This document shows, in pieces, positions 3,763-25,378 of a DNA stretch of 35,669 nucleotides. Position numbers and translations under genes: made by a program. The DNA is from a virus. Numbering within the stretch: position 1 is the stretch's first letter; each line of letters begins with the position of its first letter. The stretch lies in IMG/VR virus record IMGVR_UViG_3300034072_000742, positions 1-35,669 of that record, one strand, 5' to 3'. The notes under the pieces were generated by a model. That model did not search any database and was not told where the DNA came from. It saw nothing but the letters and a program-made list of their open reading frames with translations.

Positions 3763-3918
3763 CTAGGGCCGTATTCCGGCCCCTGTGAGCAGCTTTTGAG
3801 GGTCTAAGGTAGAGTCTTGTGCCGCAAGCATTGTTACGACATGATGAATCATGTCGCCATTTGCTTGGTCATAATTTTTGAGTATACGAAGAACTTTGAT
3901 GAGGGTAGGTTTGTGCAT
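3763..3918 (-). CDS. Small ORF, 51 aa
   Basis: ATG at 3918 preceded by CGGAGTG at 6-nt spacing; begins MHKPTLIKVLRIL and ends TGAGIRP. The final codons and stop lie in a GC-rich hairpin (3766-3782), with a canonical terminator 20 nt further on. No homologue recognised. It fills most of the 317-bp gap between the VWA gene and 3355-3666. Coding status is supported by the ribosome site and context only. Confidence 0.5.
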   Translation of the reverse strand: MHKPTLIKVLRILKNYDQANGDMIHHVVTMLAAQDSTLDPQKLLTGAGIRP

Positions 3919-3934
3919 TAGCACTCCGATCTAT

Positions 3935-3959
3935 GTGGGAGAGTCCAGGACTCTCCCAC
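3935..3959 (-). terminator. Perfect 12-bp hairpin after the VWA gene
   Basis: GTGGGAGAGTCC / GGACTCTCCCAC around one base, 25 nt past the VWA stop; in RNA the innermost pairs would open as loop. No U tract. Confidence 0.65.
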
Positions 3960-3983
3960 ACAAAGTAACTCTCTACAGAATTC

Positions 3984-5273
3984 TTATGCCGCGCGGCGCT
4001 CGTTTTCCTTCACATAATACGCGGTCATGCCCCAGGGAGCCACGATGCTCGTGTTGCCATGGACAATGAACAGCGTATCGCAATAGTCCTCTTCGCCCCA
4101 CGTGCCGCACGGATAACCATCCGTGAACATCACGAACTTCTTGGGTTCAATGCTGTCACCGATGCCATCGATGTCACCGAAGCCATAGCCGGCCGGATCG
4201 CGCATGAACTCCCAGTTACACTCGAACATGGTGCCACCGCCGCCCTTGGGCTCGTAGTCCATAATCTCGTCAATGTTGTTCTGTGTGAACACCTTGGGAT
4301 TATAGACCTGGGTGTCGAACGTCCAAAGCGTCAGCTTGAAGTCATCGAACGTTTCCATAATGCCCTTGGTTTCCGAGAGGAAATCGCGCAGCATCTGATC
4401 GGTCATCGACCCCGAGGTATCAATACAGACCGCAACGTCGACCGTGTCCTTGAAGTTGCTGCCAGGAAGGATAACGGACGCGCCGCCACCAATACCCCAC
4501 GACCGCTTGCTGGGACGGTTGAACGTATAGTCATCCTTGATAGAAGACTGGATGTGCATCTCGAGAAGAGTCCGCCAGTCCATAATGGGGTTGGTGAATT
4601 CTTCAATGAGGCGACGCACCCCTGCGGGGACCTTACCGGCGCCAACCGCCTGAGCCGCATTGATAACAGCAGCCTTGATCTCATTGCGGATCTTTTGCTT
4701 GTCCTCTTCGGTCAACTGGGGAGGACCGTCGGGACCGCCCTGGACCGTGACCGTAATGGTCTTGCCACTACCGTTGCCATCGCCATCGCCATCACCGTCG
4801 CTGCCGTCCATTTCCAAATGCTCGTCCAGCGTCATCTGAATCTTGGTCTGGTTCTGCTCCAGCAGTCGGTAAACTTCCTCAGAAGTCATTTCGTCTGTAT
4901 ACTTGTCATCATACAGACCGCCCTTGGGCATGTTACCCAGCTTTTCCTTGACCAGGGAATAGTTGACGATGTAGTCATTCGCCATATTCCACAGCTTGTG
5001 TTCGCGCGAGCCCTTGCGGCCAAGGTGATCATAAACACAGTGGAGGACCTCATGACCAATGAGGAACAGCAGTTCATCAGGGGTCAGAGACTTGATAAAT
5101 TCGCGATTGTAATACAGCTTGCGGCCATCGGTCGCAGCCGTCTTACACCACTTGGTAGCGTCAACGAGCTCCATACGGGTTGCGAGATTGCCGAAAAACG
5201 GCTGGTTAAAGAGGAGCCCTACTCGGGCCTGAACGATCGACTGAACGACCGGATCGGACATATTTGCTGCCAT
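3984..5273 (-). CDS. VWA-like protein with N-terminal HExxH metallopeptidase domain (DUF2201 type)
   Basis: 429 aa. The N-terminus carries HEVLHCVYDH at residues 74-83, a zinc-binding HExxH with a third candidate ligand (His83). An acidic DG-rich linker (157-168) leads to a C-terminal VWA-like domain with MIDAS motif DTSGS (Asp285, Ser287, Ser289). This architecture matches the putative metallopeptidase/VWA family that is partnered with MoxR AAA+ ATPases, as here with 5431-6648 immediately upstream. The pair probably forms a chaperone-like remodelling or proteolytic machine; the substrate is unknown. It has its own promoter (5301-5328), and a hairpin after MoxR separates the two, yet neighbourhood strongly implies joint action. 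Confidence 0.85.
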   Translation of the reverse strand: MAANMSDPVVQSIVQARVGLLFNQPFFGNLATRMELVDATKWCKTAATDGRKLYYNREFIKSLTPDELLFLIGHEVLHCVYDHLGRKGSREHKLWNMANDYIVNYSLVKEKLGNMPKGGLYDDKYTDEMTSEEVYRLLEQNQTKIQMTLDEHLEMDGSDGDGDGDGNGSGKTITVTVQGGPDGPPQLTEEDKQKIRNEIKAAVINAAQAVGAGKVPAGVRRLIEEFTNPIMDWRTLLEMHIQSSIKDDYTFNRPSKRSWGIGGGASVILPGSNFKDTVDVAVCIDTSGSMTDQMLRDFLSETKGIMETFDDFKLTLWTFDTQVYNPKVFTQNNIDEIMDYEPKGGGGTMFECNWEFMRDPAGYGFGDIDGIGDSIEPKKFVMFTDGYPCGTWGEEDYCDTLFIVHGNTSIVAPWGMTAYYVKENERRAA

Positions 5274-5300
5274 GAGATCCTTCCTTTTGTTGTGTCCACT

Positions 5301-5328
5301 AGTATAGCGGAAAACATCGTCGTGTCAA
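5301..5328 (-). promoter_or_regulatory. sigma70-like promoter of the VWA gene
   Basis: TTGACA (5328-5323), 16-nt spacer, TATACT (5306-5301). Strong match, with CTAGTGGACA directly following. Confidence 0.7.
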
Positions 5329-5369
5329 CTTTTTAGGTGACAAGGTCAGTTGTGATTTTGTGATAAAAT

Positions 5370-5401
5370 GAAAGGGTGACCTGTTGCCAAGCCACCCTTT
5401 C
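5370..5401 (-). terminator. Terminator hairpin after the MoxR gene
   Basis: GAAAGGGTG / CACCCTTTC 9-bp stem followed on the minus strand by ATTTTATC. Confidence 0.65.
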
Positions 5402-5430
5402 CCCGTTAGGCCACGGGAAGCCGTTACGGA

Positions 5431-6648
5431 TCAAGCCGCCAGGATCAGGTCCTGATACTTGTCCGAGAACTCATCCCAGTTCTTCATGCCCGACGGATCG
5501 AACTGAATCCGGAAGATTGCCAGCGCAGTCCGCGAACCCATGATGACCATTTCCGACTGGAAGTTCTTCATCATGAAGCCCAGGAAGTTGTCCACGTTGG
5601 TCGAGAACTTCTTCTTGTCCTCGGGCTTGGCGCCCTTAGCCGTCGAAGAGTCATACCGGTCCTTGAGCTCATAGCACAGAGCAGTGGTCAGAGCATACAT
5701 CAGCGAGATGTCAGCGCCCTTCTTCAGCTCAGTGATCTTGCCCTCGAGGATGTCGCCGGCCGCGGGCAGATTTGCCGCATTCTTGCGGTATTCCAGGAAC
5801 TTGACCGCGATGCCATCACCGACCGAACCGGCGATCAGGCTCATCTGAACCGTTTCAGGAATGTTGGGATCACCGCGCAGAATGTCGGAGACCATTTCCC
5901 ACGAACGCGGGGTGGGGAAGCCGCGCGACGCGCTGGTAGCTTCGAACTGGAACAGTTCGTGCTTGAAAGCGGTCAGGTAGCCGACCACCGCCTGGTGGAA
6001 ACCGGTCTGCAGAGCAAAGGTCTGGAAATCCTCGAAGTCCACGCGCATTTCAATGTGCGTGAAGCGATTCTGGAGCGGAGTGGGCATCTTGAACGTCGCG
6101 CCCTTGTCAGTCTCGCGGTTACCGGCCGCCATCACGATCACGTTATCGGGGACCACGTATTCGCCGAGGGCGCCATCGAGAACCAGCTGGTAGGAGCCGG
6201 CCTGGACCGAAGGAGCAGCGTTGGGCAGTTCGTCCAGCAGGATGATAGCACCATCGTACTTGTGACCCATATCATCGGTGATCTGAGCCTTGCGCATGGG
6301 CGTTCCATCATCAGCGACTCCGCGCTTCGGCAGCATCTGCGGGATAGCCCATTCAACATAAGCACGACCGGTCATATCGTCCTTGAACGGAACCGGGATA
6401 CCACGAAGGTCGGTGGGTTCCATCTGAGTCAGTCGGATATCGATGAGCTTGAAGTTCAGTTCGTCAGCGACCTGCTCGACGACCGAAGACTTGGCAATGC
6501 CAGGCGCGCCCCAGATAAACAGACCACGACGCTTCTTGCCGCGTTCTGCGTTCTCGAGGTTGACCTTGACCATATGCTTGATAGCAATCGCAGCCTCCGA
6601 CGGCTTGACCGTCAGTGTGTCGATGCGCGTTGAACCCTTCTTGGACAT
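5431..6648 (-). CDS. MoxR-family AAA+ ATPase
   Basis: 405 aa. Walker A GAPGIAKSS (47-55) and Walker B AIILLDE (134-140) identify a AAA+ ATPase; MEPTDLRGIP and NRFTH are typical of the MoxR/APE2220 group. These ATPases form rings that act with VWA proteins, here the downstream metallopeptidase/VWA gene. I chose ATG 6648 because AAGGAG precedes it at 6 nt; a longer frame to 6738 would cross the promoter. Codon use is more GC-rich than in many neighbouring small genes, as is that of the VWA gene and the NAD-type ligase gene. Confidence 0.9.
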   Translation of the reverse strand: MSKKGSTRIDTLTVKPSEAAIAIKHMVKVNLENAERGKKRRGLFIWGAPGIAKSSVVEQVADELNFKLIDIRLTQMEPTDLRGIPVPFKDDMTGRAYVEWAIPQMLPKRGVADDGTPMRKAQITDDMGHKYDGAIILLDELPNAAPSVQAGSYQLVLDGALGEYVVPDNVIVMAAGNRETDKGATFKMPTPLQNRFTHIEMRVDFEDFQTFALQTGFHQAVVGYLTAFKHELFQFEATSASRGFPTPRSWEMVSDILRGDPNIPETVQMSLIAGSVGDGIAVKFLEYRKNAANLPAAGDILEGKITELKKGADISLMYALTTALCYELKDRYDSSTAKGAKPEDKKKFSTNVDNFLGFMMKNFQSEMVIMGSRTALAIFRIQFDPSGMKNWDEFSDKYQDLILAA

Positions 6649-12685: not shown

Positions 12686-13434
12686 TATTTTCTTTCCTTA
12701 TTTCTTTTGGTTTTCCAGGCTTTCTTTGCAGCTTCAGATCTTTTAATTCTTAGCTCTTCGGGATCCATGGCTTCTTGCTTTGCCTTTCTAGTGGCTACTA
12801 TCATCGCCACTACTTCAGGTGGACGCGGTCTTCCACTTTGGCTCAACGATCTTTTCAAATTAGACTCAGAAGTCTGAGTTTTGCCGATATGTGATTCACT
12901 TAGTTTGCGTCTATATTCTTCTGAGAGAGTCTTACCCTTGTTCCAAGGAACGCTCCCTTTCATCCTCTGACTGAGTTTCTCACGATATTCAGGTGATCTC
13001 TTTTTGCCGGTATTAGCAATACTAATAGCTGCCTTCTTCGCGTCAGAACAGGGAATGCCGGCGGTCCCACCGTCGCCACCTTCAGTTAGATTGGTTAGAT
13101 TACCTGAGTGGTTGTTGAGTCGGCCTAGGCGCAGGATAACATTGGTCTCGTAGGCAAGTGCCTCTTCCTCAGTATCAAAATATTCGAGGATGCTAACTTT
13201 GGGCTCTAGGCCTCTACCCTTGATCTTTCGTATTCTAGATTCTTTAAGCGGGTTACAACCCGCTGACTTATGACCCTTTACATGGGTCCATGCCCTTCCG
13301 TTCTTACCTTTTCCTATATAGAAGGGCTGGTAGGTGAATTCTTCAGAATGTAAAGACGGGTCAAGCAGAGCGTAGACATAGAATCGATCCACTTCTACTA
13401 AATTGGATGCGTCTACTATTGCGTAGGTAGCCAT
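12685..13434 (-). CDS. GIY-YIG homing endonuclease fused to the nuclease gene's original start
   Basis: 249 aa. After 12 residues captured from the host nuclease, the catalytic module reads FYVYALLDP then FYIGKGKNGRAWTH, the GIY-YIG core of the SegF/LEM-3-like type, with a conserved glutamate in YETNVILRLG. The C-terminal half holds NUMOD3-like DNA-binding repeats (GKKRSPEYREKLSQRMKG, PWNKGKTLSEEYRRKLSESH) and a basic tail. It uses the strong ribosome site AGGAG that must once have served the nuclease. The stop overlaps the nuclease ATG by one base. It probably cleaves an intron-less, uninvaded nuclease gene near codon 12; site preference is inferred. Confidence 0.9.
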   Translation of the reverse strand: MATYAIVDASNLVEVDRFYVYALLDPSLHSEEFTYQPFYIGKGKNGRAWTHVKGHKSAGCNPLKESRIRKIKGRGLEPKVSILEYFDTEEEALAYETNVILRLGRLNNHSGNLTNLTEGGDGGTAGIPCSDAKKAAISIANTGKKRSPEYREKLSQRMKGSVPWNKGKTLSEEYRRKLSESHIGKTQTSESNLKRSLSQSGRPRPPEVVAMIVATRKAKQEAMDPEELRIKRSEAAKKAWKTKRNKERK

Positions 13435-13491
13435 TTGAATCTCCTGATTATCCGTTATCTTAACATCAAGAGAAGTCAGAAATCATTATTC

Positions 13492-14346
13492 TTAGCTGTA
13501 TTCTGTCAATCCATCATCGCGCTTGGTGCGACTAACCCCTGCCATTGGCATCGGATCTGAGGATCCATCATCAATATCTAGTGGATTATCAATGTTAAGC
13601 ATTTGGCGCATGGCTTCTTCAAACCATTTGTCTACTATCTCGTCCGGGGTGACGCCAGACCAGCCTTTGCTTTCCAGGAACTGAATAAAGTATTCATTCC
13701 AATCTAGCTCAATGACCATCTGGGTGTTTTCGCCGCGAATAGTATGATCAGCACCGATGACATTAAACCAAGGTTCTCTTAGAAGAGTAGCCACTTCCTT
13801 GTCGTGCTCGTTTTCAGTTATATTTCCAAACTTGAGCTCTAATCCAAGCTGAGCAATCTTGTAGTCAATGGATGATTTGTCATCAAACTTCATGTCTAGA
13901 AGTTCGTGCTCTGCTTGCTCTTCAGTCTTATGACCAAATCTGACATCCAGTTTGAGCTTATCTCTTTTGTAAGACTCAGTTTCTTTGTTGTCGTAGGACA
14001 ATTCAAAAAGCTTGTATTCCAGCTCTTCCAAGCTGAGTTTGCCAAACTTATGGAGGTATTTGGCTATCGCGCGCTCGCGGTCCGTCTCATTGAGATTGAC
14101 ATCATTTTCAATCAAGCCAAGACCATAATCAAACTCACCAATCTTATGATAGCGATAGTCTAGTCTGAGTTTGTCGGTGCGATATGCCTTGGTATCCTTG
14201 TCTTCATGGTCAATATCTAGAAGACGGTAGGCCAGATCCTCGCCATCCCAATAGTATTCAGCCTCGGCAACCTTACGAAGAGAGCCTGCTAGTCCCCAGT
14301 GAGCGGGCCAAAAGCCAAAAGGAATGATGCGTTTGATCTTAGCCAT
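13492..14346 (-). CDS. Conserved phage protein with three ~40-aa repeats, 284 aa
   Basis: Residues about 40-79, 111-150 and 147-186 are variants of one unit: hydrophobic-rich start, DK/NK, then Y(K/R)xDKLxLDxRFG and an acidic end. The C-terminal region contains LREPW, LDWNEYFIQFLESKGWSG and DEIVDKWFEE. Conserved in T4-like phages as far as I recall; no function known. It lies upstream of the endonuclease-invaded nuclease gene. Confidence 0.75.
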   Translation of the reverse strand: MAKIKRIIPFGFWPAHWGLAGSLRKVAEAEYYWDGEDLAYRLLDIDHEDKDTKAYRTDKLRLDYRYHKIGEFDYGLGLIENDVNLNETDRERAIAKYLHKFGKLSLEELEYKLFELSYDNKETESYKRDKLKLDVRFGHKTEEQAEHELLDMKFDDKSSIDYKIAQLGLELKFGNITENEHDKEVATLLREPWFNVIGADHTIRGENTQMVIELDWNEYFIQFLESKGWSGVTPDEIVDKWFEEAMRQMLNIDNPLDIDDGSSDPMPMAGVSRTKRDDGLTEYS

Positions 14347-16318: not shown

Positions 16319-17194
16319 CTATTTTCCGACCACGTTGCCAAACACGAGTGTGTGAACACGAGTAGCCACGCTATACCCACGCTCAACTGCCATTTCAGCA
16401 ATCTTTGCTTGGTGACTTTCCTGCATTTCACGATCAGCCCCAACAGGCATGATCCAAACGTCCCAATCGATACCAGCCTCACGATAGAGGTCAGTTGCTC
16501 TCGCGACTTCGTCCCAGTTACGGTCAGTGCCATTACAAACATACTTCAGCTGTCCAGCATTGCTGATAGCCTTGTATTGCGCTAAAACTTCTGGCTTGAT
16601 CGCGTTAGCCCACATCTCACCACTCAGGTAGAGCTTGGGAGATACTGACCAAAACAGCTCACCGTCGTGATTCACGAAAGTGTTTTCAAAAGCGGGACGA
16701 GGCTTCTGAGTGCCGTTTGTCTCGATGGTAACAAACTTGGGCGTGTTGTTACGAAGAGCAAAGTTTTCCATTACATCCACAATAGCCGTCTGACTCATCA
16801 TAGGCTCACCACCAGTGAATGCCATGTGATGCCACTGCTTGGATGTGGGATGAAGGAACTTACCACCCGGTAGGGTTGCTTCAATCTTATCACAGATTTC
16901 AGCAGCCGTGCTCTGGTGGGCTAGAGCACTGAACTTCTTGGCCCAGGAATAGCTAGAATCACAACCGCGATGGAAAACCGGAAGAGCTTCCATGGACTTG
17001 TATTCCGAGGGATCAATCTTCAGATAGTCCAGATCATAGGTTTCTGGCTTGTCGGGTTGTTCCTGGCCGAACCCCGCGCATTCAAAGTTGCAGCCCCAGA
17101 CGCGCAACCACGAAGTGGGACGGCCGGTGTAGGCTCCTTCACCTTGAAAGGTCTGTCCAAAAATTTCAGAATATCTATATTTCTTCTCTGTCAT
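16319..17194 (-). CDS. queE: QueE-like radical SAM enzyme (7-carboxy-7-deazaguanine synthase)
   Basis: 291 aa. The N-terminus IFGQTFQGEGAYTGRPTSWL, WGCNFEC, CDSSYSW, FTGGEP and VTIETNGT are the QueE motifs in order. QueE converts 6-carboxytetrahydropterin to 7-carboxy-7-deazaguanine using SAM and a 4Fe-4S cluster. Here the three cluster cysteines are Cys35, Cys39 and Cys78, spaced CX3CX38C, so about 36 residues are inserted before the last cysteine compared with CX3CX2C. With folE it points to a 7-deazaguanine pathway (tRNA queuosine or modified phage DNA). ATGA overlap with 17191-17724. Confidence 0.9.
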   Translation of the reverse strand: MTEKKYRYSEIFGQTFQGEGAYTGRPTSWLRVWGCNFECAGFGQEQPDKPETYDLDYLKIDPSEYKSMEALPVFHRGCDSSYSWAKKFSALAHQSTAAEICDKIEATLPGGKFLHPTSKQWHHMAFTGGEPMMSQTAIVDVMENFALRNNTPKFVTIETNGTQKPRPAFENTFVNHDGELFWSVSPKLYLSGEMWANAIKPEVLAQYKAISNAGQLKYVCNGTDRNWDEVARATDLYREAGIDWDVWIMPVGADREMQESHQAKIAEMAVERGYSVATRVHTLVFGNVVGK

Positions 17195-22777: not shown

Positions 22778-23032
22778 TTACATCCAGGTCATTTTAAACA
22801 AAATTGCCGCTTTGACGTCTTGGAATTCCATAGAAACTTGCCACTGACTGATGATCTTTAGATCAAAAGAAATCCCATGACGATCAACCCATTCACCAAC
22901 ATCTCGATAGAGAGTCGCATACCAGATAGACTGACCATCCCTTGGTATAAATTTGCGATCTATTATACAAAGTGGTTTGACACCAATCTCTTTTCCAAGC
23001 TGAGTACCAATCAAAAGAGTTACTTTTTCCAC
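22778..23032 (-). CDS. Small FKL-signature paralogue G, 84 aa
   Basis: GTG start at 23032 overlaps the stop of 23020-23349. VGEWVDRHGISF then SMEFQDVKAAILFKMTWM, a clear match to the array signature. Last gene of the four-gene array. Confidence 0.75.
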   Translation of the reverse strand: MEKVTLLIGTQLGKEIGVKPLCIIDRKFIPRDGQSIWYATLYRDVGEWVDRHGISFDLKIISQWQVSMEFQDVKAAILFKMTWM

Positions 23033-23349
23033 GCTACTTTCTTTCTTTTATTGATGCTTTGATGGAAAAGTTCTTCAAATTGGGCATTTCCAAAATACTC
23101 TGAACCCCAGGCTAGTATAAATGTTCTCGCCGCCTTTACATCAGAAAACCTCAGATAGACGTCGTTGGTAGACCTTTTCCCGGTTTCAGGTTTATCCATA
23201 AGAAGATATTTCTTATATGAAATCCTGTTATCTCTTAGCCAGTCTACCATGTCCCTATTGAGTTCAACCCTCCAGCTACTACGGAAAGAGTCAGAGCCTG
23301 ATACCCATCTCCAACAATGACGTCTAGCTAGCTTGACTGTTACATCCAC
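23020..23349 (-). CDS. Small FKL-signature paralogue H, 109 aa
   Basis: Best start is GTG 23349, overlapping the end of the next gene; the longer frame to 23757 only shadows two other genes. RDMVDWLRDNRISYKKYLL and LRFSDVKAARTFILAWGSE match the array, with the FKL core changed to FIL and a basic C-terminal tail (INKRKKVAWKK). Confidence 0.6.
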   Translation of the reverse strand: MDVTVKLARRHCWRWVSGSDSFRSSWRVELNRDMVDWLRDNRISYKKYLLMDKPETGKRSTNDVYLRFSDVKAARTFILAWGSEYFGNAQFEELFHQSINKRKKVAWKK

Positions 23350-23570
23350 CGCAGCTTGAACATCACTGCCTGATTTTTGTTTGGGATGATCAGTAGTGCT
23401 GCTGAATTCTCCGGACGCCATCCCGGTGGACAAAACACATATTGAATCTGATTCTCCGCCAACCATAGGGCAATCTCGTCTCGAAGCTTGAGACGATAGC
23501 GTTGGTTCGACTTCACCATTTCCACATGGTGAGATCTCAGTTTGAAAGTTTGGTTTGCTGTTATGACCAT
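23340..23570 (-). CDS. Small FKL-signature paralogue I, 76 aa
   Basis: ATG overlaps the stop of 23561-23851. LRDEIALWLAENQIQYVF then IPNKNQAVMFKLRWM. Shortest complete example; the unit helix-linker-strand-FKLxW is plainly visible. Confidence 0.75.
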   Translation of the reverse strand: MVITANQTFKLRSHHVEMVKSNQRYRLKLRDEIALWLAENQIQYVFCPPGWRPENSAALLIIPNKNQAVMFKLRWM

Positions 23571-23851
23571 GTGAGTTTGAACAACATTGCGTGGTCTTTT
23601 TGTTCAAATATGATTCGGCTACGTCCATTGCCCCCGAGTACCATTTTATGAGGAAAGTTACGATCTTGTAGCCATTTCTGAATATCATGCTTGAGTTTTC
23701 TAGACGTTCTTCTCGTCTTGAAACCATATTTGGAAGTATTGGGGGTCGAAAACTCAAAATCCCAATGTTTTATGTGATAGAGCTTGATCGTGCGAATCTT
23801 CTCTTCAGCATAAAACTCTTTGCTCTTCCAAAGATCAGGCTTTTCGGGCAT
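23561..23851 (-). CDS. Small FKL-signature paralogue J, 96 aa
   Basis: ATG 23851 overlaps the glycosylase gene by 17 nt. KLKHDIQKWLQDRNFPHKM then IIFEQKDHAMLFKLTWS. First gene of the four-gene array 23851 to 22778. Confidence 0.75.
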   Translation of the reverse strand: MPEKPDLWKSKEFYAEEKIRTIKLYHIKHWDFEFSTPNTSKYGFKTRRTSRKLKHDIQKWLQDRNFPHKMVLGGNGRSRIIFEQKDHAMLFKLTWS

Positions 23852-24407
23852 ATTTGTTCCAAATCATTAGATCGAAATCTGCAACGCTCATACCACTAGC
23901 ATCTGCCAACTTGAGGAACTCTTCCTCAAGTGTCTTATACTTGGGGCCGGCCGGTGGAGTCCCCTTTTGATCAGTAATACCCAAATCCCGCATGTGGCGA
24001 ATCACATGAGTATCAAGACAAGCAATGCGCTGATTTTTACGAGTGTGGAGAACAAAATAGCGAGCAGTTTTGGCGCCCACACCGTGGATGGATTCGAGAT
24101 CCTCAACAGAGCAGGTAGCTAAATTCTTACCAACACTCTCTCGAAAAGCTCGTTCCAGCTTGGTATACTGGCCCAAACGAGATTCTTTGATCCGGTCAAG
24201 CAGGATACCACTCATGTCCATAACACTGACAATCTGGAATGGAGTCGTGAAACCGGGGAACTCTTCCCTGCCCTTGCTCAAAAAGGATTCAAGAGTCTTT
24301 GCCTGTTGGACTGCGGTTTTTCCCGCAACTGAGATACAAAAGAGCCAGAACTCTTGTAGTTCTTCAACGGTTCGGTCAAACTTTGTGACATCAGTTGGAT
24401 CTATCAT
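23835..24407 (-). CDS. HhH-GPD DNA glycosylase (Nth-like)
   Basis: 190 aa. ESIHGVGAKTARYFVL is the helix-hairpin-helix with a lysine (113) at the Nth catalytic position, and CLDTHV gives the catalytic Asp132. It would excise damaged bases; the retained lysine predicts glycosylase plus lyase activity. No C-terminal 4Fe-4S cysteine cluster is present, unlike classic Nth (211 aa). It complements the UV endonuclease at 30874. Confidence 0.8.
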   Translation of the reverse strand: MIDPTDVTKFDRTVEELQEFWLFCISVAGKTAVQQAKTLESFLSKGREEFPGFTTPFQIVSVMDMSGILLDRIKESRLGQYTKLERAFRESVGKNLATCSVEDLESIHGVGAKTARYFVLHTRKNQRIACLDTHVIRHMRDLGITDQKGTPPAGPKYKTLEEEFLKLADASGMSVADFDLMIWNKYARKA

Positions 24408-24625
24408 AACTTTACCATAAGGTAATAGAACAGAGTTGTCACTCTCGATCTTGGGGAGCCGCCGCTCCCCGCCTTCTGCCTGCTCTCGAGACTCGCGGTC
24501 TCTCGGTGCGTTGATCCGTAATCACCTCCTCAGGTACAAAGTATGGCAGGCTCCAGCGAAACTTTACGTTCCAAGATGGGATTAGATCCCGATCTTGGAG
24601 GGGCTTTAAAGCCCCTCCAATATCA
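24408..24625 (-). ncRNA. Structured 218-bp intergenic region after the clamp gene
   Basis: Four hairpins are visible: 24595-24620 (10-bp stem TTGGAGGGGC), 24571-24598 (CCAAGAT + GGGAT stems), 24488-24502 (GAGAC/GTCTC) and 24453-24470 (GGGGAGC/GCTCCCC). The first two share TTGG and cannot both fully form. Between them and the next gene the minus strand has AGGAGGTGAT, a complete anti-16S match, with no ATG at usual distance. A short GTG-initiated basic frame (28 codons) is possible. Could be an attenuator, terminator cluster or small RNA. Confidence 0.4.
24595..24620 (-). terminator. Terminator hairpin after the clamp gene
   Basis: Perfect 10-bp stem with TTTAAA loop, 5 nt past the clamp stop. 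Lacks a U tract. Confidence 0.65.
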
Positions 24626-25378
24626 TTACTTCTTGCGCGCAGGAAGAATGAACTTGTATTCAGCCTGGTTGCTGGCCATTGAAATCTGCAATGCGCCACG
24701 CGAAGAGAACTGAAGCTTGAGGTTCTCATCAGCACCCAGCTTGAGGATTGCGAGCACTGGAGCAATACCCCAATGTAGATCACCGCCGAGAGTGCCCTCG
24801 ACGTCATCCGCAATAGTCAAGAACGCACGGTGCATCGACGAACCTTCGTCACCAATGTAGAATCGCAGTTCGTTCTTGCCCTCGACCTCAACGGTCTTGA
24901 CCATGAAGAAGTTCTCAAACTGGCCGTAGAGACCTGCGAGAGCCTGGAGTTCCTTGAGCTTGCTTGCCGAGGGATCGATTTCAACGTCCCAAGTGGTGCC
25001 CAGGAACTTTGCCTGTTCAGGGATCAGATCCGAAGCCATCAGACGATAAGCACCGCTGCTCTTGCCGTCAGCTGACTTAAAAGAGATTTCCTCAGGGGTC
25101 ATCTTGCCATTGCGCTCACGACGCTTGACTTCAATCTTGGCGTCATCGGTCTTGAACAGGGCATAGTTGACTAGACCTTGAAGAAGACCCAAGTGGCTCA
25201 TACCAAATTCGCCCTTGAGTTCAGGCTCAGCCTTGAGCAGCTGACCCTTGACGATCACAGTGCGCTCATTGTCCATGGCTTCAATGATAGTCTTGTCATC
25301 GTCGCCTGTGATCTTGATAGTATCGATATTGTTGACACCAATAGCATGACGCACAATATCCTGAATAGTTTCACGCAT
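24626..25378 (-). CDS. Sliding clamp, T4 gp45-like
   Basis: 250 aa against 228 for T4 gp45. The acidic N-terminus, the repeated beta-rich halves and the SNQAEYKFILPARKK end fit a trimeric DNA clamp that tethers the polymerase. Strong ribosome site (AAAGGAG) and a promoter at 25412-25440 support independent high expression. Sits two genes downstream of the polymerase, as in T4-like replication regions. The fold call is from pattern and context; there is no single catalytic motif to check. Confidence 0.8.
   Translation of the reverse strand: MRETIQDIVRHAIGVNNIDTIKITGDDDKTIIEAMDNERTVIVKGQLLKAEPELKGEFGMSHLGLLQGLVNYALFKTDDAKIEVKRRERNGKMTPEEISFKSADGKSSGAYRLMASDLIPEQAKFLGTTWDVEIDPSASKLKELQALAGLYGQFENFFMVKTVEVEGKNELRFYIGDEGSSMHRAFLTIADDVEGTLGGDLHWGIAPVLAILKLGADENLKLQFSSRGALQISMASNQAEYKFILPARKK

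Follow-up and report, generated by a model that had tools for sequence, protein, structure and literature searches.

The intergenic region between the sliding clamp and DNA glycosylase genes of the window (the whole 35,669-nt stretch analyzed, IMG/VR record IMGVR_UViG_3300034072_000742) is occupied on the minus strand by a structured RNA element of about 128 nt, a larger unit than had first been noted. From 5' to 3', the element consists of hairpin P0, the 5' strand of P1, a loop with a Shine-Dalgarno (SD) sequence, hairpin P2, the 3' strand of P1, hairpin P3 and the tail AAGAUCGA, and the long-range stem P1 encloses both CCUGAGGAGGUGAUUAC and P2. Evolutionary comparison supports it as a previously uncatalogued structured RNA of jumbo phages, without a family in Rfam 15. 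We propose, with slightly less than even confidence, that it is a cis-acting, multi-helix element which docks the 30S subunit and serves initiation from a displaced SD in the polycistronic replication transcript.

The gene order at the locus, read on the minus strand, is DNA polymerase, a small ORF, sliding clamp, element region and glycosylase, with the following features.

24626 to 25378, minus strand: sliding clamp gene, related at 45.6% identity to the clamp annotated in phage Phosso
24595 to 24620, minus strand: clamp-end hairpin A, outside the element
24571 to 24598, minus strand: hairpin B, not conserved in relatives
24445 to 24572, minus strand: whole conserved RNA element from P0 to tail, matched by covariance model R1 with 154.9 bits and E 2.1e-30, the window element being one of the six training rows of R1
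24558 to 24572, minus strand: hairpin P0 (GGAAC-GUAAA-GUUUC), covarying in clade A
24545 to 24557, minus strand: P1 5' strand (GCU, internal GGA, GCCUGC), with covariation
24520 to 24530, minus strand: invariant AGGAGGUGAUU inside the P1 loop, a perfect 10-nt complement of the 16S rRNA 3' tail
24488 to 24502, minus strand: hairpin P2, inside P1, with three of five pairs covarying and all cells paired in 9/9 elements
24471 to 24483, minus strand: P1 3' strand (GCAGGC, AGAA, GGC), from the hand alignment
24453 to 24470, minus strand: GC hairpin P3 with a GGCG loop and no U-tract after it, three of seven pairs covarying
24445 to 24452, minus strand: conserved tail between P3 and the start codon, present in 9/9 complete elements
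24404 to 24442, minus strand: 12-codon GTG ORF whose TGA overlaps the glycosylase ATG (ATGA), also found in L003 with one residue changed
23835 to 24407, minus strand: Ogg-HhH-type DNA glycosylase gene (PF22175, 29.6 bits against a cut-off of 27)

No tRNA or tmRNA was found. Behind the glycosylase, at 22778-23851 on the minus strand, a run of small ORFs shares a recurring C-terminal theme (AMLFKLTWS, AVMFKLRWM, AILFKMTWM) and is possibly a repeated small-protein family.

The sequence features named in the first-pass annotation are all present: hairpins A and B with the bases TTGG (24595-24598) in common, an SD-like motif, AGGAGGTGATT, at 24520-24530 on the minus strand with no start codon at SD spacing, and two GC-rich hairpins downstream, which correspond to P2 and P3. 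That annotation left out the long-range stem P1 around SD and P2, the conserved tail (AAGATCGA) and the start codon that directly follows the tail. The suggestion that A and B exclude each other holds as far as the shared TTGG is concerned, but the exclusion itself is weak, as the joint fold keeps A whole together with 9 of 12 B pairs (predicted folding energies of -20.4 kcal/mol for A alone, -14.4 for B alone and -28.7 for the joint fold). An attenuator with mutually exclusive helices was therefore rejected, given that A dominates the joint fold, that both hairpins lie outside the conserved unit, and that in relatives the clamp-end hairpin recurs while hairpin B and the shared TTGG do not. 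An intrinsic terminator was also rejected, with no T-run after hairpin A or P3 and neither of them in the terminator scan. The sequence 24640-24408 as a whole folds better than 200/200 shuffles (z -4.2), which can largely be ascribed to the clamp-end hairpin and the GC-rich hairpins.

The structured RNA that had been suggested is supported by covarying stems in related phages, a test set beforehand. An alignment of 11 rows, comprising ten elements (one cut by a contig end) and one weak chance match that was kept, had 97.0% of 268 cells paired and 14 of 26 pairs changed on both sides. None of 500 shuffles reached any of five measures, and when the partners were slid by 1-3 columns as a control, pairing fell to 33-52%. 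Since this alignment was fitted to the structure and hence leans towards it, the elements were also aligned by hand, with the cut element of L017 dropped. In the nine complete elements every cell pairs, and double changes occur in P0 (two pairs), P1 (two), P2 (three) and P3 (three), P0 and the outer part of P1 being compared in the six clade-A elements only. The inner part of P1, P1b, is GCCUGC/GCAGGC in clade A versus AGCUGC/GCAGCU in clade B. R1, which was built from the six clade-A elements, detects the clade-B elements of L012, L007 and L008 at E 5.5e-10, 8e-9 and 2.8e-6, respectively. Judged by this comparison, P0, P1, P2 and P3 form a real, conserved and covarying fold. The support comes from covariation and not from stability, because isolated elements fold little better than shuffles: the window element has a z of -0.60, and eight single elements range from -0.01 to -3.0, seven of them above -2. 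An additional pairing between CAAGA of the tail and UCUUG of the core was rejected, as it is possible in the CUUGAGG forms and is lost without compensation in the CCUGAGG forms.

Relatives of the clamp were found on ten IMG/VR contigs, four of them longer than 400 kb. The contig of L009 ends inside the clamp gene, and the element is present in 9/9 of the other IMG/VR contigs, which extend past it. Searched with R1, whole IMG/VR records gave one strong match each (7/7) plus two extra ones that are weak (E 0.03 and 0.18); the Phosso, Atu_ph07 and PA5oct records gave none. The extra match at E 0.03, in the L007 genome, is just a gene-end hairpin followed by AAGATCGA, and a second GAGGAGGTGATT in the L012 genome was also dismissed as an element. 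Across the complete elements the tail shows a single change, to CAGAUCGA in L006. What precedes the element varies: in some genomes it immediately follows the clamp gene, in others a different gene. In L003 a class I tRNA synthetase ORF (4268-5656; PF00133, 1.5e-94) lies between clamp and element; a similar ORF precedes the element in L006, and none is found at the corresponding place in the window. By its text MPPPNITGKLHMGHA, the synthetase is presumably of the valyl type. In L014 two adjoining ORFs with similar N-termini (MDINDLYLELGK and MDINKLYEELGR) occupy this interval (12916-13362 and 13404-13745); they have no Pfam match and look like a duplication. Behind the element, relatives carry endonuclease genes or others at the corresponding start position, and the element is thus kept while both neighboring genes change between genomes.

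Beyond the clamp relatives, a looser pattern returned 22 viral stretches, of which 13 were new (L025-L037). These look like coding matches or ordinary SDs and were rejected as elements; none matches R1 at E 1 or below. In GTDB genomes the pattern occurred in at least 117 stretches, and in 80 of these the best R1 match had an E of only 0.37. A blastn search with one element against 50,697 phage records gave only chance-level matches (E 8), and R1 had no match in 15 glycosylase loci of other phages (Caulobacter, Erythrobacter, IMG/VR), Phosso included. A clamp search started from Phosso found nothing. Between the clamp and glycosylase of Phosso (L019, 6648-6753) there is a short look-alike, CGGCCC...AAAGGCGGUGAUUC...GGGCCG followed by a hairpin, in which the CGGCCC/GGGCCG stem surrounds AAAGGCGGTGATTC; it is not detected by R1 and is a possible reduced relative of the element. 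Rfam 15 gave no match at the gathering score in the window or in the loci of nine relatives, and only chance-level matches at a relaxed threshold in the element region. No description of this RNA was found in the open-licence literature consulted.

In the SD core, AGGAGGUGAUU is identical in 10/10 aligned elements, within the invariant loop motif CxUGAGGAGGUGAUUxC, and the 13-nt core does not change across elements whose clamps are 73-79% identical to that of the window. In all ten elements this maximal anti-SD complement stands without a start codon at SD spacing. As a motif alone, AGGAGGTGAT is weak evidence, because it occurs once in the window and 8% of 300 simulated windows also carry one. 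With the letters that we take to be those of the 16S tail, the duplex with AGGAGGUGAUU has a computed energy of about -20 to -22 kcal/mol. Opening the core inside the P1-closed fold is predicted to cost about 5.7-8.0 kcal/mol in nine elements, and the core is partly paired in all predicted folds, with a mean unpaired probability of 0.17-0.36. Partial pairing of this kind could also belong to a regulatory leader which exposes or hides the SD upon binding a ligand, a tRNA or a protein, possibly in autoregulation by a replication protein. Loop residues other than the SD are conserved as well (UGAGGAGGUGAUU, and GAGC after P2), which would fit such a leader; however, the Rfam searches above gave it no counterpart and the downstream genes have no obvious common pathway, and we regard this explanation as quite improbable.

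Four of the nine complete elements are followed by an ORF of 82-273 aa whose start lies at -1 to +6 nt relative to the tail end.

L004: GIY-YIG protein, 273 aa
L006: 132-aa protein with a relative in L014 (27/41 identical)
L008: HNH protein, 169 aa
L012: 82-aa ORF

To judge from the sequences, initiation at the codons behind the tail is consistent with the N-termini of the GIY-YIG, HNH and 132-aa proteins. In the window and L003 the 12-codon GTG ORF begins at +2 and its stop overlaps the glycosylase start, and in L007 a TTG ORF of 16 codons begins at +6. The start lies farther away in L014 (+22) and L013 (+20). Measured from the core SD, the distance to the start is 79-90 nt in seven of the nine complete elements. 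At the start itself, the SD match is at most 3 nt in seven of the eight elements compared (window, L003, L004, L006, L008, L012 and L014; L007 was not among the eight). As a reference, among 543 ORFs of 100 aa or longer taken from parts of two of the genomes and from the window, 59% show an SD match of at least 4 nt at the first ATG, a proportion that is probably low because the set includes false ORFs. The lack of an SD in L004 and L008 is therefore no strong argument, since SD-less homing endonuclease genes are common in T4, where 6 of 12 such genes are described as having no discernible initiation region (PMC2988022).

The short ORFs in the window, L003 and L007 could be due to chance. The window GTG is part of a GTGACA (24437-24442, minus strand) which lies 35 nt before the glycosylase in four genomes, the others being L003, L008 and L012. 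In L008 and L012 other genes are inserted between element and glycosylase and GTGACA still lies 35 nt before the glycosylase; the window GTG is therefore perhaps conserved for another reason. GTGACA could be a promoter-like box, the window copy being listed in a promoter-like scan with 9/12 matches, or an old start codon. In other phages the glycosylase family occurs without the element, and in several the glycosylase start overlaps or abuts the preceding gene, which fits translational coupling. A different GTG, within the core SD itself, had been put forward as the start of a very short leader peptide. It does not qualify as a conserved start, as in L008, L013 and L014 the frame is open for just 3-9 codons; in L006 it runs into the next ORF.

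An invariant anti-SD complement without a start codon, in an element that is flanked by stable hairpins and outlasts both of its neighbors, could instead point to a small RNA acting in trans, which would be cut from the replication transcript and bind the 16S tail of free 30S subunits, dampening or redirecting host initiation. Phage phiKZ is described as producing an RNA of about 100 nt through 3'-UTR processing (PMC8545117). However, in every locus examined the element lies within a coding operon and has the same orientation as its genes, it is present in a single copy, P3 is without a U-tract, and the promoter-like scan has no match at the 5' side of the element in the window. The start codons abutting the tail in several genomes would be needless for a free RNA. 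We therefore consider a trans-acting role unlikely.

The tail is not specific to initiation, because the 3' ends of two other genes in the L007 genome also carry a GC hairpin with AAGATCGA or CAGATCGA directly after it (L158, reverse, at about 1800-1835, and L167 at about 16636-16660), where the combination may be a phage-specific 3'-end or processing motif. In the window, at about 3905-3960 on the minus strand, a hairpin is followed by TAGATCGGAGTGCTAATG with a short ORF starting behind the hairpin, and L174 has a near-identical copy. The recurrence of a hairpin with (A/C)AGATCGA at two gene ends of one genome would suit a unit for RNA processing or termination, with the SD match as a by-product. 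Neither processing nor termination would need P1 and P2 or account for a core that is invariant while the clamps diverge, and this explanation is highly implausible.

One genome hints at a link between the core SD and the gene behind it. In L008 (3764-3898), CACCUCCUCAA, also written CACCTCCTCAA, lies between P3 and the tail just before the HNH gene and is an exact 11-nt complement of the core UUGAGGAGGUG, with a computed duplex energy of -18.4 kcal/mol. The longest core complement in the other nine sequences, Phosso among them, is at most 5 nt. The L008 complement is a possible built-in lock on the core SD. As phage homing endonuclease genes are reported to often hide their ribosome-binding site in RNA structure (PMC2988022), a lock ahead of the HNH gene is a hint, though no proof, that the core SD acts for the gene that follows. 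In this respect L008 resembles I-TevI, mobE and segB, whose ribosome-binding sites are described as sequestered by hairpins; it differs from them in that the I-Tev genes are given an SD about 8 nt from the AUG (PMC2988022) and in that the lock is found here in one genome only.

These observations are what the cis-acting 30S-docking proposal is meant to join. The 16S tail would open the weak local pairing of the SD, at a cost of about 6-8 against a gain of about 20-22 kcal/mol, and would thereby tether the 30S subunit at the P1 loop. P1 and P3 would remain folded on the 30S platform with the tail AAGAUCGA lying along the way to the P site, and the docked subunit would capture the SD-less start codon that directly follows the tail. 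In the window, capture would start the 12-codon ORF, and because the stop of this ORF overlaps the glycosylase start, the glycosylase may then be translated by coupling. The geometry, with the SD within the P1 loop, is the main weakness of this proposal. With the SD enclosed by P1, secondary structure by itself does not bring it to within 5-13 nt of the start, the range for T4 genes 25 and 38, and the proposal thus depends on tertiary folding or a standby-type capture. The remote starts of L013 and L014 also speak against it, as does L013 in keeping the core SD although its glycosylase has an SD of its own.

In T4 genes 25 and 38, RNA folding is described as bridging the SD-AUG gap, from 27 to 11 nt and from 22 to 5 nt (PMC3014915). 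As in these genes, the SD in our element is part of a phage mRNA and too far from the start, with no nearer SD except in L013. However, T4 has one hairpin between SD and AUG, whereas here the SD is inside a long-range stem, and four helices and a tail are conserved while the downstream gene changes. Bypassing P2 and P3 would still leave far more than 11 nt between SD and start, outside the 5-11 nt spacing.

The E. coli thrS mRNA has its SD near the start codon. It is an example of a split ribosome-binding site; in such sites and in ribosome standby sites, a distant site is described as binding the 30S subunit while the folded RNA is accommodated on the platform, and distant standby sites are reported to support high translation rates (PMC3936740). 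The distant site of thrS is single-stranded RNA upstream of a hairpin, whereas in our element it is the SD itself.

The STAB-SD of Bacillus thuringiensis cry3A is an SD-like sequence far upstream which is reported to pair with 16S rRNA without initiation (PMC4113751), and the element likewise combines a strong 16S complement with the lack of any start codon at SD spacing. By the same logic, a bound 30S subunit could shield the downstream mRNA from ribonucleases without starting translation there. The retention of the core SD in L013, where the glycosylase has its own SD (AGGAG), would fit such a role. Nevertheless, STAB-SD acts on mRNA stability near a mature 5' end, with no such end known at the element, and here a conserved fold within an operon surrounds the complement; neither this P1/P2/P3 fold nor the conserved tail nor the tail-adjacent start codons would be explained. 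We consider such a stabilizer distinctly unlikely.

Returning to 30S docking, a bolder form of the proposal is that the element represents a new RNA family resembling a small bacterial IRES, which captures the 30S subunit through its full-length anti-SD complement and starts translation at any start codon placed just behind its tail, so that different genes, including homing endonuclease genes, are pluggable, and which is maybe tuned to ribosomes that carry the phage-encoded bS21 protein. This is conceivable but doubtful. A bS21-like protein (PF01165 above cut-off) was found in five of nine records searched, namely Phosso and the four element-bearing IMG/VR records longer than 400 kb (G001, G004, G005 and G006). 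It was also found in 3/8 records of phages without a known element, and therefore no association between bS21 and the element is shown. A role in redirecting translation has been proposed for the bS21-like proteins of huge phages (PMC7162821), and phage bS21 is background here, not evidence for the docking mechanism. The RegB nuclease (PF10715) had no match, but its control also matched nowhere.

Initiation from a displaced SD is a function of an already known kind, and a multi-helix, gene-independent version would be new. If the proposal is true, an SD can work about 80 nt from the start, given a conserved fold that holds the ribosome, and the few known cases of split SDs would widen into a portable initiation module, with bearing on how phages steer host ribosomes. 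The element also offers a small family in which 30S docking and start selection can be tested against each other. Should the mechanism prove wrong, jumbo phages still have a structured RNA which evolution supports and which Rfam 15 lacks.
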